Assembly: GCA_029978585.1 (NCBI GenBank)
Contig: JAPOJD010000006.1
Span: 1 to 34,770, forward strand
Direction: 5' to 3'
From: Actinomycetota bacterium
Lineage (GTDB): Bacteria; Actinomycetota; Actinomycetes; S36-B12
DNA: 34,770 nt
Positions 20,983-27,084 of the stretch are shown here, in pieces. Position numbers and translations under genes: made by a program. Position 1 is the stretch's first letter; the number at the start of each line of letters is the position of its first letter. The notes below the pieces were generated by a model. The model was not told where the DNA came from. It worked only from the letters and a program-made list of their open reading frames with translations, and ran no database searches.

Positions 20983-22197
20983 TCAGGATTTCGCGATGCC
21001 CCGCAGGCCCTCGACGAGGCGGTCGACGTCCTCCTCGCTGGTGTACGGCGCGAGCCCTGCTCGCACGCCCCCAGCGTCGCCGAGGCCCAGCCAGCGCGAC
21101 GCCTCGAGGGCGTAGAAGTTGCCCGACGGCGCGTTGACGCCCTGCAGGGCCAGCCTTTCGGTCACCTCGTCGGCGCTCATGCCCTCGAGCGTGAACGTCT
21201 CGGTCGGGGTTCGGTGCCGGGCATTGCTGTAGGTGCGGATCCCGGGGACCGATTCCAGGCCCGCCCGCAGGCGCGCGTGCAGGGCGTCCTCGTAAGTCTC
21301 GAGTGCGGCGAGTGACACGAGGAGGCGCTCGCGACGGGACCCCTCCGACGGCACGAGGTCGGCGAGGATGTCGACGGCCGCGGTGACGCCGGCCAGGAGC
21401 TCATAGGGGAGGGTGCCGAGCTCGAATCTCTCCGGCACGCGGTCGGTCGCGGGCAGCAGCTTGTCGGGGTGCAGTGAGTCGAGCAGTTCCGGGCTCGCCG
21501 CCAGCGCGCCCAGGTGCGGGCCCAGGAACTTGTACGGCGAGCACGCGTAGAAGTCCGCTCCGATGTCCGCGACGCTGATCGGGGCGTGGGCGGTGAGGTG
21601 CACGCCGTCGGCGTACAGCAGCGCGCCCGCGTCGTGCACCTCGTCAGCGACGGCGGCGAGGTCGGGCCGCGTGCCGATGAGGTTCGAGGCCCCGGTGAGG
21701 GCGACCACCCTGGTGCGCTCGCTCAACTGCGCCCGCACGTCGTCGACGGTGAGTTCTCCGGTTGCCGGATCGAACTCGATCCAGCGCACGGTCGCGCCCG
21801 CGCGTGACGCATGGATCACCCAGGGGCGGACGTTGGCATCGTGGTCGAGGCGGCTCACGACCACCTCGTCCCCGGGTCCCCAGTCCTGCGAGAGCGTCCG
21901 GGCAATGTCGAAGGTGACCTGGGTCATGCTGCGGCCGAACACGATCCCGCCCGGGTCGGCGCCCAGCAGGTCCGCCATCGCCTCGCGGGCCGCGATGACC
22001 ATGTCATCCGCGCGCCGCTCGGCCGCGGTGACGCGGCCGCGGTTTGAGACAGCCGAGCGCAGTGCCTCGGACATGGCATCGGCCACCGGGTCGGGGATCT
22101 GCGTGCCCCCGGGGCCGTCGAAGTGGGCAGCGCCCTCGCGGAGCGCGGGCACCTGGTCGCGGAGGCGCTGGACGTCGTACGTCGTAGCAGGCGGCAT
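20983..22197 (-). CDS. cysteine-desulfurase-like class V aminotransferase (TIGR01976-like)
   Basis: A 404-residue PLP enzyme of the class V aminotransferase fold. The Schiff-base lysine is in YACSPYKFLGPHLG (K223), preceded by the cofactor-binding aspartate and histidine of LLYADGVHLTAH. The N-terminal segment AAHFDGPGGTQIPDPV resembles the VC1184/TIGR01976 group of cysteine-desulfurase-like proteins. These lack a confirmed reaction, and I see no iron-sulfur cluster genes nearby, so a SufS role is unlikely. ATG 22197 is preceded by TAGGGT at six bases, and the divergent beta-propeller gene starts 46 bases away. Confidence 0.85.
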   Translation of the reverse strand: MPPATTYDVQRLRDQVPALREGAAHFDGPGGTQIPDPVADAMSEALRSAVSNRGRVTAAERRADDMVIAAREAMADLLGADPGGIVFGRSMTQVTFDIARTLSQDWGPGDEVVVSRLDHDANVRPWVIHASRAGATVRWIEFDPATGELTVDDVRAQLSERTRVVALTGASNLIGTRPDLAAVADEVHDAGALLYADGVHLTAHAPISVADIGADFYACSPYKFLGPHLGALAASPELLDSLHPDKLLPATDRVPERFELGTLPYELLAGVTAAVDILADLVPSEGSRRERLLVSLAALETYEDALHARLRAGLESVPGIRTYSNARHRTPTETFTLEGMSADEVTERLALQGVNAPSGNFYALEASRWLGLGDAGGVRAGLAPYTSEEDVDRLVEGLRGIAKS

Positions 22198-22243: not shown

Positions 22244-24172
22244 ATGAGCGCGCGGCCTCCGGCCCTCACCCGGGCCGTGGCGGCCCTGTGCACCGCCGCG
22301 GCGCTCGTGGTCCTGTCGCCGCTGGCCCTGCTGGGCGCGCTCTGGGTCGGACCGCAGACGGTGGTCGCCGGCCTGCGGGCGGCCTCGCCCGCCTACGCGG
22401 CCGCCGGTCTCGCGGTCGTCCTCGGCCAGGTGCTCGTCGTGGTCCTCCTCTCCAGCCTGCCGGGGGTGTGGCGAGCCGGGCGGCGGGCCGCGATCACGGC
22501 GCTCGTCGTCGTGGTCCTGCTCCTCCTCGTGACCCTCACCGCGGCATGGACGACGGTGGTGGCGCCATGGTGCCCGCGCCCGCTCGCCGCCGCCGTCCTG
22601 GCGGCCGCCGGGATCTCCCTGGTCGTCCTCCTCGCGCGCCGTGGCAGCACCCATGACGCCGACCAGGGTGCGAGCGTGCCTCGCGTCGGACTGGTCGCGA
22701 CCGGCATCGTGGTGGCGTACTGCGCCGTCGCCGTCGCCGTCGTGGTCGCACTCGGGTCCACGGGCATCCCGTCGTTCCCTCGACTGCCCGGGCAGGTTGA
22801 GTGGGTGCAGGGCGTCGCGGGCGGTGGAGCCGTCCCGGCAGAGCAGCCACCGCAGAGCCCGGGGCTGGCTCCCGGGGAGCACTCCGGAATCCACAACGAC
22901 GCGTGGATGACCGATGCCTACGCGGGTACCTCGATGATCGATGCTCGAACGGCCCAGGTGCGCTCCTTCTTCGCCGGCGGGGACTGCGCTTCGATGGTGT
23001 GGGACGACCTCGGCCGCATCGTCGCCGTGTGCGTGTCGCCGACTCAGACTCGCGCGTACCTGCTCGACCCGCGCACCCTCGAGCCCCTCGCCGAGCGCCG
23101 ACTCGCGGAACGCCCGCTCACGCCGGGCTTCCTCACGGACTTCTCCGGTTGCGGCTACGCGGTGCTCGACTCCGCGCAGCGCCTGGTCATCCCGCTCCCG
23201 GGCGGGATCATCGCGCGGTACGACACGCGCGCAGACCTCGCACCTGTCGATGCCTTCCCCGTGGGGGAGTCGTTGCAGGAGGGTGAGCGAATCACGTCGG
23301 TGCTGCCCGACTGGAGCGGTGCGCTGTGGTTCGTGGGCCAGCGGGGGACCGTCGGCGTCCTCGATCCCGTGCGCGGGACGCACTCGGCGCTGGTGCTCAC
23401 CGACGGGTCCGGGCGCCCGGTCGACATCGAGAATTCCTTCGCCTCCGCAGAAGGCGGCGGGGCCTACGTGGTCACGTCGGCGGACCTGGTGCGCCTCGAC
23501 ATCGCCGAAGGCCGCCCGACGGTCGCCTGGCAGCAGCCCTACGACCGCGGGGTGCGACGCAAGCCGGGCCAGACCAGTCGGGCTTCGGGTACGACGCCCA
23601 CCGTGTTCGCCGGGGGCCGGTACGTGGCGATCACCGACAACGCCGAGCCCCGGATGAACCTCGTGGTGGTCGACGTGTCCGGCCCATCGCCCAGGGTGCA
23701 CTGCGCGGTGCCGGTATTCGCGCCGGGCGCCAGTGCGACCGACAACTCGATCATCTCCCTGGGCAATGCGCTCTTCGTGGAGAACAACTACGACTACTCC
23801 GTGCTCTCCGTGGCGGGAGGCCGAACCTCGCAGCCGGGTCTAGCGCGCATCGACGTGACGGATGAGGGCTGCTCGGTCGGCTGGGAGTCATCGGAGGTGA
23901 CCATCCCGTCCCTGGTGTCCAAGGGGGTGGCCCTGGACGGCGCGATCCTCACGTACACGAAGGAGAGCAGCCTCGCCGGAGTGGATGCGTGGTGGTTCAC
24001 CGCGGTCGACGCATGGACGGGGCAGGTGCTCTGGCGCCGCCTGGCGGGCAACGGGCCCATGTTCAACAACCACTACGCCGCGGGCTACGTCGGCCCCGAC
24101 GGCAGCATCTACGTCGGCACGATCAGCGGCGTCGTTGCGCTGGTGGAGGACGTCTCAATCGACGGCGAGTGA
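22244..24172 (+). CDS. membrane-anchored beta-propeller (PQQ-like repeat) protein
   Basis: A 642-residue protein. The first 180 residues contain about five membrane helices (roughly 10-32, 46-70, 82-104, 112-128, 148-172). The remaining 450 residues form a soluble domain of repeated four-stranded blades, with blade-like elements such as GALWFVGQRGTVGVLDP and a final segment WFTAVDAWTGQVLWR and GPDGSIYVGTISGVVAL, the PQQ/WD-like blade pattern. Cysteines are scattered (GDCASM, DFSGCGY, VHCAV). No catalytic motif is recognised, and a scaffold or sensor role is a guess. ATG 22244 is six bases after CACAAT. It overlaps the convergent S51-fusion gene by 18 bases. Confidence 0.75.
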   Translation: MSARPPALTRAVAALCTAAALVVLSPLALLGALWVGPQTVVAGLRAASPAYAAAGLAVVLGQVLVVVLLSSLPGVWRAGRRAAITALVVVVLLLLVTLTAAWTTVVAPWCPRPLAAAVLAAAGISLVVLLARRGSTHDADQGASVPRVGLVATGIVVAYCAVAVAVVVALGSTGIPSFPRLPGQVEWVQGVAGGGAVPAEQPPQSPGLAPGEHSGIHNDAWMTDAYAGTSMIDARTAQVRSFFAGGDCASMVWDDLGRIVAVCVSPTQTRAYLLDPRTLEPLAERRLAERPLTPGFLTDFSGCGYAVLDSAQRLVIPLPGGIIARYDTRADLAPVDAFPVGESLQEGERITSVLPDWSGALWFVGQRGTVGVLDPVRGTHSALVLTDGSGRPVDIENSFASAEGGGAYVVTSADLVRLDIAEGRPTVAWQQPYDRGVRRKPGQTSRASGTTPTVFAGGRYVAITDNAEPRMNLVVVDVSGPSPRVHCAVPVFAPGASATDNSIISLGNALFVENNYDYSVLSVAGGRTSQPGLARIDVTDEGCSVGWESSEVTIPSLVSKGVALDGAILTYTKESSLAGVDAWWFTAVDAWTGQVLWRRLAGNGPMFNNHYAAGYVGPDGSIYVGTISGVVALVEDVSIDGE

Positions 24173-25405
24173 CCACTCGGGCCCGTCCGGCGTGTCGCGC
24201 ACCTCGATGCCCGCGGCCGCGAGGCGGTCGCGGACCAGGTCGCTCATGGCGAAGTCCTTCTGCTCCCGGGCGAGTTGGCGCGCGGCCAGGGCCACGTCCA
24301 CGACGGGCCCGAGCACCTCGCGCTCGTCGCGCAGCCCGGTCGAGGCCGCGGAGGCCAGGTCCACGAGCATCCCGCGCAGTGCGGCCCGGGCCCGGTCCAC
24401 GTGATCGCCCTGCACCGTGTCGGCCGACCAGGCGTGGATGGCGTCCTCGAGGTCCAGGGTCGCGGCGAGGGCGCCGTCGGCGTCGCCGGCGGCCAGGCAC
24501 TCGTCGAAGGCCGCGCGCAGCCTGTCGACCTCTGCTCTCAGCGACATGCTCTCGCCGCGCGGCTCGACAACAGCCGGGTCCGGGGTACTCACGGGGGAGA
24601 TCGCGACGGCGCCGGCGCCCCGGAGGGCGCGCGTGATGTCGTCGAACGACACGGACTCGCCGGAACCCAGGACCGTCGACACGCCGCGATGGCGCAGGGT
24701 GAGCCCCCCGACGCCCTGAACCGTGGCGATCCGCGATTCCAGGTCGAGGATCACCGCGGTGTGCTCGTCGACGCCGAGCACGCCGATGTCGGCGGGCAGG
24801 GACGCCTCCAGCCGCACGAGGCGCTCCTCGCCGAGGTAGCAGTAACGCGTGTCATGGCGCCCGCCCTCGCGATTGTCGTAGTGCGGAACCACCGCGGCCG
24901 TGATGCCGGTGAGCGAGCCCAGCAGGTCGAGGCCCTGGAGCCAGTGCGGCTCGACCCCGACCTTGTAGATCTCATAGACGGGTACGGCATACGCCCCGAC
25001 GGTGACCGCCGCCGCGCTCGCCATGACGAGCGTGCCGCCTCGAGCGACGAGGTCGCGCAGGGCCCCAGGGATAGGGGTCCCCTCCCACTGGCGCAGCGCG
25101 TAGGTCGGGCTGCCGGGGCCGGCGAAGGCCCACGACGCCCGGGAGAGGAGGGCCAATGCCCGCTCGCGCTCGGTGACCGCCTCCTCGCGGCTGCGCCATC
25201 GCACGACGTCCAGGCTCGACCCGACGGAGTCGCGGAAGTACTCGAGGATCTTGTCGGTGAGGTCGTCGGCGTTGACCTGGAACCCGAATGGCGTGTCTAG
25301 CATCGCGGCGGTCCCGGGGCCGGAGGAGCCGATGACCGCCCGATGGACCTTGACCATGGTGGGGGCGGTCTCCCCCGAGCCGATGATGACGAGGCGTCCG
25401 CTCAC
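24155..25405 (-). CDS. peptidase S51 (cyanophycinase-like) domain fused to a CysRS-type C-terminal domain
   Basis: A 416-residue fusion. Residues 1-270 resemble peptidase S51/cyanophycinase class-I-glutamine-amidotransferase folds: VIIGSGETAPTM at the start, the nucleophile elbow VMASAAAVTVG (normally G-x-S-A-G-A), and GVDEHTAVILD with a trailing VLGSGESVSFDD. Residues about 285-416 resemble the helical DALR/C-terminal region of cysteinyl-tRNA synthetase, most clearly REQKDFAMSDLVRDRLAAAG followed by IEVRDTPDGPEWSL, where CysRS has KDFxxAD-x-IRD-x-L and DTPxGxxW. The CysRS catalytic HIGH and KMSKS motifs are absent. GTG 25405 follows CACAAT by six bases. Possible roles: a peptidase on a Cys- or tRNA-linked substrate, or a protein-interaction use of the C-domain. 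Confidence 0.82.
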   Translation of the reverse strand: MSGRLVIIGSGETAPTMVKVHRAVIGSSGPGTAAMLDTPFGFQVNADDLTDKILEYFRDSVGSSLDVVRWRSREEAVTERERALALLSRASWAFAGPGSPTYALRQWEGTPIPGALRDLVARGGTLVMASAAAVTVGAYAVPVYEIYKVGVEPHWLQGLDLLGSLTGITAAVVPHYDNREGGRHDTRYCYLGEERLVRLEASLPADIGVLGVDEHTAVILDLESRIATVQGVGGLTLRHRGVSTVLGSGESVSFDDITRALRGAGAVAISPVSTPDPAVVEPRGESMSLRAEVDRLRAAFDECLAAGDADGALAATLDLEDAIHAWSADTVQGDHVDRARAALRGMLVDLASAASTGLRDEREVLGPVVDVALAARQLAREQKDFAMSDLVRDRLAAAGIEVRDTPDGPEWSLAVD

Positions 25406-25430: not shown

Positions 25431-25871
25431 CTAGGCCGCGGTGGCAGGTCCCTCGCCGAATCGGTTGGGGCCGGGGGTGCTCGGGGACGCCCAGAAGATG
25501 ATGACCACGATCACGCCGATGATGCAGCAGAAGTAGTAGAGCAGCCACCACCAGCCGGAGCGGTCCGTGTCGTGCAGGCGTCGGCAGCCGACCGCGAGCG
25601 TGGGGATGATCAGCGCGAGGCTCCAGGCGATCGCGATGATCATGCCGAAGATTGCCAGGCCGCTCAGCCCGCCGCCGGAGACCGTGTTGGTGGCCTCGTT
25701 GACCTGGAGGGTGTTCAGGGAGCTGGTCAGTCCGATGTTGAGGGGGATGCTGATGATGATTCCGCCGAGGACGACGAACAGGTACCACCACCAGAACTCC
25801 GACCGGGATGCCCGGCCATTGAAGTTGGCGTAGTTGCTGAACACGTGCTTGATGGCCTGGCCGAATCCCAT
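25431..25871 (-). CDS. DUF805 family membrane protein
   Basis: A 146-residue protein with about three to four membrane helices. The N-terminus YANFNGRASRSEFWWWYLFV is the DUF805 signature (F-x-GRASRSEFW), and GCRRLHDTDRSGWWWLL is the second family motif. DUF805 proteins are inner-membrane proteins of unknown function, some near stress genes. ATG 25871 has a strong ribosome binding site (GGGAGGA, five bases upstream) and a -10 box about 33 bases upstream, so this gene has a conventional leader. Confidence 0.87.
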   Translation of the reverse strand: MGFGQAIKHVFSNYANFNGRASRSEFWWWYLFVVLGGIIISIPLNIGLTSSLNTLQVNEATNTVSGGGLSGLAIFGMIIAIAWSLALIIPTLAVGCRRLHDTDRSGWWWLLYYFCCIIGVIVVIIFWASPSTPGPNRFGEGPATAA

Positions 25872-25903
25872 GATTCCTCCCGAGGAGCGTCCCTTGGGCC
25901 TGC

Positions 25904-25909
25904 AGCCTA
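25904..25909 (-). promoter_or_regulatory. -10 box of the DUF805 gene (with leader)
   Basis: TAGGCT on the minus strand. The predicted start site gives a leader of roughly 25 bases containing GGGAGGA, a conventional promoter plus Shine-Dalgarno arrangement that contrasts with most of the window. Confidence 0.45.
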
Positions 25910-25930
25910 GTGACGGGACCGCGAATTGGG

Positions 25931-25936
25931 TAGCGT
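25931..25936 (+). promoter_or_regulatory. -10 box of the FAD monooxygenase gene
   Basis: TAGCGT, eight bases before GTG 25945. Confidence 0.5.
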
Positions 25937-25944
25937 CGACGCGC

Positions 25945-27084
25945 GTGAGGGTGAAGGTCGTTGGCGCAGGCATCGCCGGTCTCGCCACGGCGCACCTCCT
26001 GGCCAGGCTGGGCCACGACGTCGAGATCCTGGACAGCGCCGCCTCGGCGCCGGAGGAAGGCACCGCGCTGGCGCTGCAGCCGAATGGACTCGCTGTGCTC
26101 GAGGCGCTAGGCGTGGCCGGGGAGCTCGACGCGGCGTCGTCGAGGATGCGCCAACTTCGGGTCTTCGACGGCCTCGGCCGCGCGATCACGACCACGGTGG
26201 TCCCGGACTTCGGGCCGGGCCTGGACCACGTCCTGGTCGCCCCGCGGGCCGACGTCGTGAGGGTGCTCGCCGCCGCCGGACCTGTTGCCGTGCGCTGGGG
26301 AGCCGATGTCGGACACGCGGGCCCGGGGCTTCTCGACGTCCAGGAGGGACACGATCGGAGCACCGTCACGGCCGACCTCATCGTTGGAGCCGACGGCGCG
26401 TCATCGACGGTGCGCAGGTGCTTCGACCTGGGGGTCCGCCGACGCGGCGGGCGGCGCTACCTGCGGATGATGCTGGAGCGGCCCCTCGCTCACGCGCGGG
26501 CCGGGGAGTACTGGACGCGCTCGGGACTGGCCGGGATGCTGCCCTGCGGTCCGGCGCGGACCTATGCGTACGCCACCGCCACCCAGGAGATCGTCGACGC
26601 CCACGCGAGCGGCGCCGACGTGGCCGAGGCGATCGGTAGGGCCCACCCCATCCTGGCCGCGCTCCTGCCACGATCGCTGCCCAGCGATCGTGTGCTGGTG
26701 AACGACGTGTCGACAGTCGACTGTCGCAGTTTCGTCGGGCCCGGGGTGGTGCTCGTGGGCGACGCCGCGCATGCCATGGCTCCCAACCTGGGGCAGGGCG
26801 CGAACTCGGGCCTCCTCGATGCCGCCATCCTCACCCTCGAACTCGCGCAGGGCGACGACCTCGGATCAGCCCTGGAGCGGTACGACGCGCAGCGTCAGGC
26901 GGTCCGCCGCGTCCAGCGGGACGCCGAGCGCCTGGCGCGTGCAGCGCATTCCCGCGGTCCGCGCGAGGCCCGCAATGCACTGGCCCGCGCGCTCGGGCGC
27001 CTGCCCGTGGCTGGCGTCCTGAGGCGGGCCCAGCAGTGCGAACCCGACGAGCTCCGCGCGCGCCTGAGCGCGGCCCTGGGATAG
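25945..27084 (+). CDS. FAD-dependent monooxygenase
   Basis: A 379-residue flavoprotein hydroxylase of the PHBH/UbiH group. The FAD-binding Rossmann motif is VVGAGIAGLATAHLL at the N-terminus, the DG motif is VGADGASSTVR (about 149-159), and the GD motif is GDAAHAMAPNLGQGAN (about 272-287). The enzyme would use NAD(P)H and oxygen to hydroxylate an aromatic or similar substrate. GTG 25945 is preceded by TAGCGT; GTG 25951, two codons later, is an alternative. Its TAG stop overlaps the -10-like element of the following TlpA-like gene. Confidence 0.87.
   Translation: MRVKVVGAGIAGLATAHLLARLGHDVEILDSAASAPEEGTALALQPNGLAVLEALGVAGELDAASSRMRQLRVFDGLGRAITTTVVPDFGPGLDHVLVAPRADVVRVLAAAGPVAVRWGADVGHAGPGLLDVQEGHDRSTVTADLIVGADGASSTVRRCFDLGVRRRGGRRYLRMMLERPLAHARAGEYWTRSGLAGMLPCGPARTYAYATATQEIVDAHASGADVAEAIGRAHPILAALLPRSLPSDRVLVNDVSTVDCRSFVGPGVVLVGDAAHAMAPNLGQGANSGLLDAAILTLELAQGDDLGSALERYDAQRQAVRRVQRDAERLARAAHSRGPREARNALARALGRLPVAGVLRRAQQCEPDELRARLSAALG

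Follow-up and report, generated by a model that had tools for sequence, protein, structure and literature searches.

Why would a peptidase-like hydrolase carry the end of a cysteinyl-tRNA synthetase (CysRS) that reads the anticodon? The question is posed by a gene on a 34,770-nucleotide (nt) stretch of an Actinomycetota genome (hereafter the window; contig JAPOJD010000006.1 of assembly GCA_029978585.1), in which an open reading frame (ORF) on the minus strand at 24155–25405 (read from a GTG at 25405 to a stop at 24155) encodes a protein of 416 amino acids (aa). The original prediction, made from the sequence, had read it as a peptidase S51/cyanophycinase-like domain fused to a CysRS C-terminal domain. 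We confirm this pairing: the ORF call, Pfam and orthologous fusions agree on an S51 domain followed by a helical bundle and a CysS_C tail. Absence of a CysRS-tail profile match and an unrelated fold were both looked for and neither was found—the CysS_C match is significant and the fold agrees with the CysRS C-terminal region. The HIGH and KMSKS motifs are absent from the 416-aa sequence, as had been predicted, so that the protein lacks the marks of a catalytic CysRS; the NCBIfam CysRS model TIGR00435 aligns with the tail only (20.6 bits; cut-off, 340). The architecture, for which other genomes were listed as had been suggested, is conserved far beyond chance and is not peculiar to one genome: a scan of named genomes found at least 565 stretches that encode a relative, among at least 594 stretches matched, and the best 80 were kept. 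We propose, with a probability of about 0.42, that the fusion is an S51-fold serine hydrolase that is tethered to tRNA-Cys by the anticodon-reading module of CysRS and perhaps hydrolyses an acyl group.

The tail is homologous to CysRS. The CysS_C profile (PF23493) matches residues 365–411 (24173–24313, minus strand) with 26.3 bits in the full protein (cut-off, 23) and 29 bits in the tail alone (E = 1.2e-6). With a profile built from the fusion family, the similarity spans residues 296–415, which align with residues 335–459 of E. coli CysRS (E = 3.7e-9), and a tail profile searched against the PDB gave five matches at E < 0.1, all of them CysRS (best, 1.8e-12; first non-CysRS match, 0.29). Alignment of the tail to 20 CysRS of the same order using hhalign (98.8%, E = 4.8e-17, 46% identity over 81 columns) covered only about residues 337–416. 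Thus, of the 130 C-terminal residues that had been called CysRS-like, the family profile spans nearly all (296–415), whereas the single-sequence profile reaches only the last ~50. In the AlphaFold2 model (79-sequence alignment; mean predicted local distance difference test score (pLDDT), 88.5), a low-confidence linker (residues 272–286) leads into a bundle of three helices (289–305, 309–329 and 334–356) that resembles the anticodon-binding helices of CysRS (residues ~289–357; 24335–24541, minus strand). Foldseek matched CysRS bound to tRNA-Cys (1u0b_B) with E = 1.7e-3 for the whole model and 9.8e-4 for the tail model, for which it was the sole PDB match at E ≤ 0.001. VIA-align of the whole model superposed residues 290–414 on 1u0b residues 332–461 with Z = 8.3 and a root-mean-square deviation of 16.6 Å, which reflects either a differing angle between two sub-domains or a loose match. 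VIA-align of the tail by itself also scored many unrelated helical bundles at Z = 8–10, beside 1u0b at Z = 8.1, so the resemblance of the bundle on its own does not settle the matter. The last ~80 residues are therefore securely CysRS-derived and the preceding bundle probably so.

The tail shares with the CysRS C-terminal region (PF23493; E. coli CysRS 332–461 in 1u0b) its profile, fold, G34-reading residues and order of helices and hairpin, and the set of tail positions that never vary among the fusions is almost the same as in genuine CysRS; the fusion differs in that it is joined to a hydrolase and lacks the catalytic domain with HIGH and KMSKS. The sequences also differ: before Asp389 most fusions have Ser where CysRS mostly has Ala, and before Asp404 they have Arg or another residue where CysRS mostly has Glu. 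In a tree based on 76 columns, 21 CysRS tails of the same order formed one group (support, 95/99) separate from the fusion tails. We therefore reject a recent capture of the tail from the host's own cysS and consider the fused tail to be old.

The residues that meet the anticodon are kept. According to an interface analysis (PMC12684709), G34 of tRNA-Cys is contacted in E. coli CysRS by hydrogen bonds from Arg427 and Asp436, by stacking of Trp432 and, via water, by Arg423. These residues align with R380, D389, F385 and R376 of the window protein, respectively, which places a predicted G34 site at residues 376–389 (24239–24280, minus strand). R376, R380, D389, R392 and D404 are kept in all 79 fusions, and position 385 is aromatic (F, Y or W) in every one; the same six positions are kept in 46 of 46 further distinct CTD-bearing S51 proteins (51 new distinct S51 proteins minus five tail-less ones), short-tailed Chloroflexi forms included. 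Phe at position 385 is not a loss, because the stacking position is mostly F or Y in genuine CysRS of the same order too. Three of the four contact positions fall among the six invariant positions of 54 in the tail (hypergeometric P = 0.003). These residues suggest that the tail may bind tRNA-Cys, and the window genome does encode an ordinary tRNA-Cys(GCA). An extra, dedicated tRNA-Cys was sought in ten genomes by pattern search and ARAGORN and is rejected: nine (G000, G003, G030, G172, G265, G135, G388, G471 and G577) each have one ordinary tRNA-Cys, and none was found in G281, where the pattern itself may have failed.

The N-terminal part (residues ~1–262; 24620–25405, minus strand) has the S51 fold at the level of structure. 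The window protein alone scores below the cut-off of the Peptidase S51 family (PF03575; 12.1 bits, cut-off 23.9) and far under the equivalog cut-off of the NCBIfam cyanophycinase model (TIGR02069; 27.6 bits, cut-off 126.6). The AlphaFold2 model matched the cyanophycinase-like exopeptidase of acI actinobacteria (6nqc), cyanophycinase (3en0) and peptidase E (1fy2) in Foldseek with E = 1.9e-12, 9.6e-11 and 7.8e-9, respectively; VIA-align gave Z = 25.7 for 6nqc (2.7 Å over 230 residues) and Z = 24.4 for 3en0 (over 235), and the family profile found 6nqc in the PDB with E = 1.4e-16. Alignment with 6nqc identifies a presumed Ser–His–Glu triad: the nucleophile Ser130 (codon 25016–25018; aligned with the SAGA serine) and His175 (24881–24883; aligned with IPHF) are present in 79/79 fusions and the acid Glu214 (24764–24766; aligned with GIDE) in 75/79, all three codons lying on the minus strand. 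The S51 elbow is GxSAG, and PMC11078827 describes both this elbow and the triad for peptidase E. The window protein instead has MASAAA, and xSAAA occurs in 79/79 fusions. The altered elbow that had been pointed out is thus real, but activity is not excluded by it, because the serine, the histidine and (in 75/79) the acid are retained; we take the domain to be a hydrolase that is active or that at least binds a substrate. With the cyanophycinases (3en0 and 6nqc) the domain shares its fold and the Ser–His–Glu order, whereas xSAAA in place of GxSAG, the extra tail, an identity of ~20% and the score far below the TIGR02069 cut-off set it apart; fold and triad order are likewise those of aspartyl dipeptidase (peptidase E; PMC11078827 for triad and GXSAG), from which the fusion differs by its elbow and tail. 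Some Chloroflexi-titled fusions read GVDGHTA or GVDSHTA around the triad acid (L156 and L157, the genes of L070 and L088), and this Gly or Ser hints at another acid or a changed reaction.

The fusion is widespread in Actinomycetota and reaches Chloroflexi. In a first set of 59 genomes, the window's included, 53 had a match, which in 24 of them covered all or much of the S51 fusion. In a sample of 396 genomes of the phylum (E ≤ 1e-15), the 47 matches comprised 39 fusions, 7 CysRS tails only and 1 tail-less S51 fragment at a contig edge (G237). Titles among the best 80 stretches include Nanopelagicales, Kineosporia, Pseudonocardia, Dactylosporangium, Acidimicrobiia and some Chloroflexi, and the fusion was also found on Streptomyces plasmids and in Nonomuraea; two annotated records call it 'hypothetical protein'. 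Among 201 genomes sampled around one Chloroflexi-titled genome, 50 had an S51 match (E ≤ 1.6e-57), full-length in 15. On reading 36 loci from this search, most S51-only alignments proved to have a short CysS_C tail; the tail-less ones were L174, L180, L185 and the distant L191. Carriage by viruses is rejected: viral contigs searched with the single protein yielded no relative, and phage records gave one match only, to the tail region. A defence role is rejected, PADLOC having returned no match for the fusion or for the alpha/beta hydrolase often encoded beside it.

How might the two parts work together? We suggest that the tail docks on tRNA-Cys around its GCA anticodon, with the pocket in which CysRS holds G34, and that the S51 active site would thereby be set on the tRNA; the hydrolase could then act as a trans-editing factor, cleaving an aminoacyl or peptidyl ester that is wrong, damaged or stalled. 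By analogy only, trans-editing would be the most natural reaction; substrate and reaction are our guess. In many lineages, the alpha/beta hydrolase from the same operon would presumably act in the same process, with the window's clade doing without it. The original prediction had offered tRNA-Cys, a Cys-containing peptide or a protein partner of CysRS as possible targets, and tRNA-Cys is the best supported of these options because the anticodon-contact residues are kept, from which binding is predicted. Detached parts of tRNA synthetases are known in new roles. We found no paper on a pairing of S51 or cyanophycinase with a CysRS tail, most subscription literature being outside our search. An anticodon-reading module that sits on a serine hydrolase, is conserved in two phyla and retains the residues that read the base argues for a reaction directed at tRNA-Cys, of which we found no description; it bears on whether bacteria proofread the charging of cysteine, and offers a likely function for a 'hypothetical protein' family together with its operon partner.

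Several observations weigh against this proposal. The ~75 Å from the anticodon to the acceptor end of a tRNA must be bridged, and CysRS is not known to need editing for the standard amino acids. In the fusions, other residues stand in for the glycines of the GxSAG elbow, Glu214 is replaced in 4 of the 79 (three Gly, one Ser) and the tail is absent from 5 of 51 further S51 proteins (L126, L174, L180, L185 and L191). Invariance of the contact residues could reflect a shared folding constraint, the tail being a CysRS homologue, and the anticodon-site signature is also kept in a CysS_C domain on glycosyltransferases of family GT2 (see below), so that either several enzymes share the tether or the residues are structural.

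The alternative that survives best, although we hold it to be somewhat unlikely, is an ordinary S51 peptidase that cuts Asp-containing or other peptides, with CysS_C serving as a module for protein binding, small-ligand binding or oligomerization that no longer meets tRNA. S51 relatives of solved structure are peptidases, tail-less members occur in the same subfamily (L174, L180 and L185) and CysS_C is found in non-synthetase proteins, namely a YqeB-like membrane protein and GT2. In a census of 17 genomes (proteins assigned from coordinates and frame length), PF23493 matches over the cut-off fell in CysRS and the S51 fusion and, in G463 alone, in a third, YqeB-like protein; the fusion in G265 lay just under the cut-off, G639 had only a CysRS-sized frame and two sub-threshold matches occurred in G471 and G585. 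CysS_C is thus not promiscuous in this census, and 118 genomes of the phylum mostly had one match each. The extra CysS_C proteins that were opened among the latter and proved legible were one YqeB-like protein (L248) and two GT2 proteins (L277 and L280), with L278 and L279 giving no clear reading. In L277 (1486–2418, plus strand), an N-terminal CysS_C precedes GT2, with PF00535 and PF23493 both above cut-off and the anticodon-site signature kept; the same arrangement and signature were read by eye in L280 (3–656, minus strand). GT2 is a second non-synthetase use of CysS_C. The YqeB-like protein—presumably the one named YqeB or 'CysS/YqeB C-terminal domain-containing protein'—shares its C-terminal CysS_C with the fusion but is a membrane protein with a degraded G34 site in the two read (G463 by alignment, L248 by eye): in G463, L, A and T stand at the three direct contact positions. 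A CysS_C tail can hence do without R380, F385 and D389, whereas the fusions keep the G34-contact positions invariant (79/79 and 46/46), which speaks against this alternative, as do an elbow and other motifs unlike those of peptidase E.

An unlikely alternative is a sensor or regulator whose tail senses tRNA-Cys and switches the hydrolase on at cysteine shortage. The HisRS-like domain of GCN2 senses tRNA; an anticodon module without acceptor-end catalysis would suit such a role, as would the operon with the alpha/beta hydrolase and, in the window's clade, a gene resembling cysteine desulfurase that lies two genes from the fusion. However, charging is not reported by the anticodon end, and no regulatory domain was seen in the protein.

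Improbable too, in our estimate, is a quality-control deacylase that grips the anticodon of tRNA-Cys and strips oxidized or otherwise acidic Cys. Aspartyl groups are the target of S51 enzymes such as peptidase E and cyanophycinase, and Cys sulfinate or sulfonate is an aspartate look-alike. An Asp specificity of the fusion itself would be an analogy with peptidase E (PMC11078827). If true, such a deacylase would mean post-charging proofreading of cysteine, by an enzyme fold that is not known in editing, that protects proteins in aerobic actinobacteria and chloroflexi.

A link to thiol metabolism had been raised because CysRS-related domains have a second life in MshC of mycothiol producers, but this link is weak. 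The window genome has a canonical MshC as a separate gene on contig C135 (641.9 bits), and in the 396-genome sample an MshC-like match (E ≤ 1e-100, a limit chosen in this analysis) was present in 34/39 fusion genomes versus 86/357 others (Fisher P = 9e-15, without phylogenetic correction). This association has exceptions both ways: 5 of the 39 fusion genomes lack such a match (G082, G177, G257, G265 and G444, each at least 90% complete), and of the 53 genomes with MshC above the curated cut-off, 52 lack the fusion and 1 has it. In the Chloroflexi-titled G455 and G457, metagenome-assembled genomes that may be incomplete, the only match is a single one at the CysRS level. The MshC model TIGR03447 was not among the NCBIfam matches of the fusion protein up to E = 10, and the tail is closest to CysRS. 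We therefore reject mycothiol as the explanation, and an enzyme whose substrate is mycothiol, one of its precursors or a Cys conjugate, with a tail that is a relic of MshC or CysRS ancestry, is highly improbable. Separately, MshC-like proteins in G187 and 66 other genomes score 345–446 bits, well under the curated cut-off (485.1) and over CysRS-level matches, and may form a separate class of MshC beyond the classical producers of mycothiol.

An alpha/beta hydrolase gene (~300 aa) lies directly upstream of the fusion on the same strand in 61 of the 80 loci (300 nt or more of upstream sequence being available in 77) and in 27 of 41 representatives at 70% identity. The two genes overlap by 4 nt in 41 loci and by 1 nt in 13, a mark of translational coupling. 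The partner is generic at the Pfam level (Abhydrolase_1/6) and keeps a GQSWGG-type elbow. The window gene has no such neighbour, and nothing in the window genome matches the partner at E ≤ 1e-20, while G040 and G056 have a match on other contigs. The partner is therefore common but not required, and we reject it as essential: the window's clade has in its place a DUF805 gene (25431–26381, minus strand; DUF805 match at residues 184–310, true start inside this ORF range), which is conserved beside the fusion only in that clade (cluster 8).

On its other side, the stop region of the fusion is overlapped by 18 nt by the end of a convergent gene (22244–24172, plus strand) for a predicted protein of 642 aa that neither Pfam nor NCBIfam matched within the limits used. 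The cysteine desulfurase-like gene (20983–22197, minus strand; TIGR01976 above cut-off) lies two genes downstream, on the same strand as the fusion; six loci belonging to the window's clade keep it close to the fusion (cluster 20). In 23–33 loci (clusters 1, 3 and 4; L047–L052 and other Acidimicrobiia-type loci), genes named by eye as a metal ATP-binding cassette transporter (permease, ATPase and binding protein) lie near the fusion, downstream and mostly on the opposite strand.

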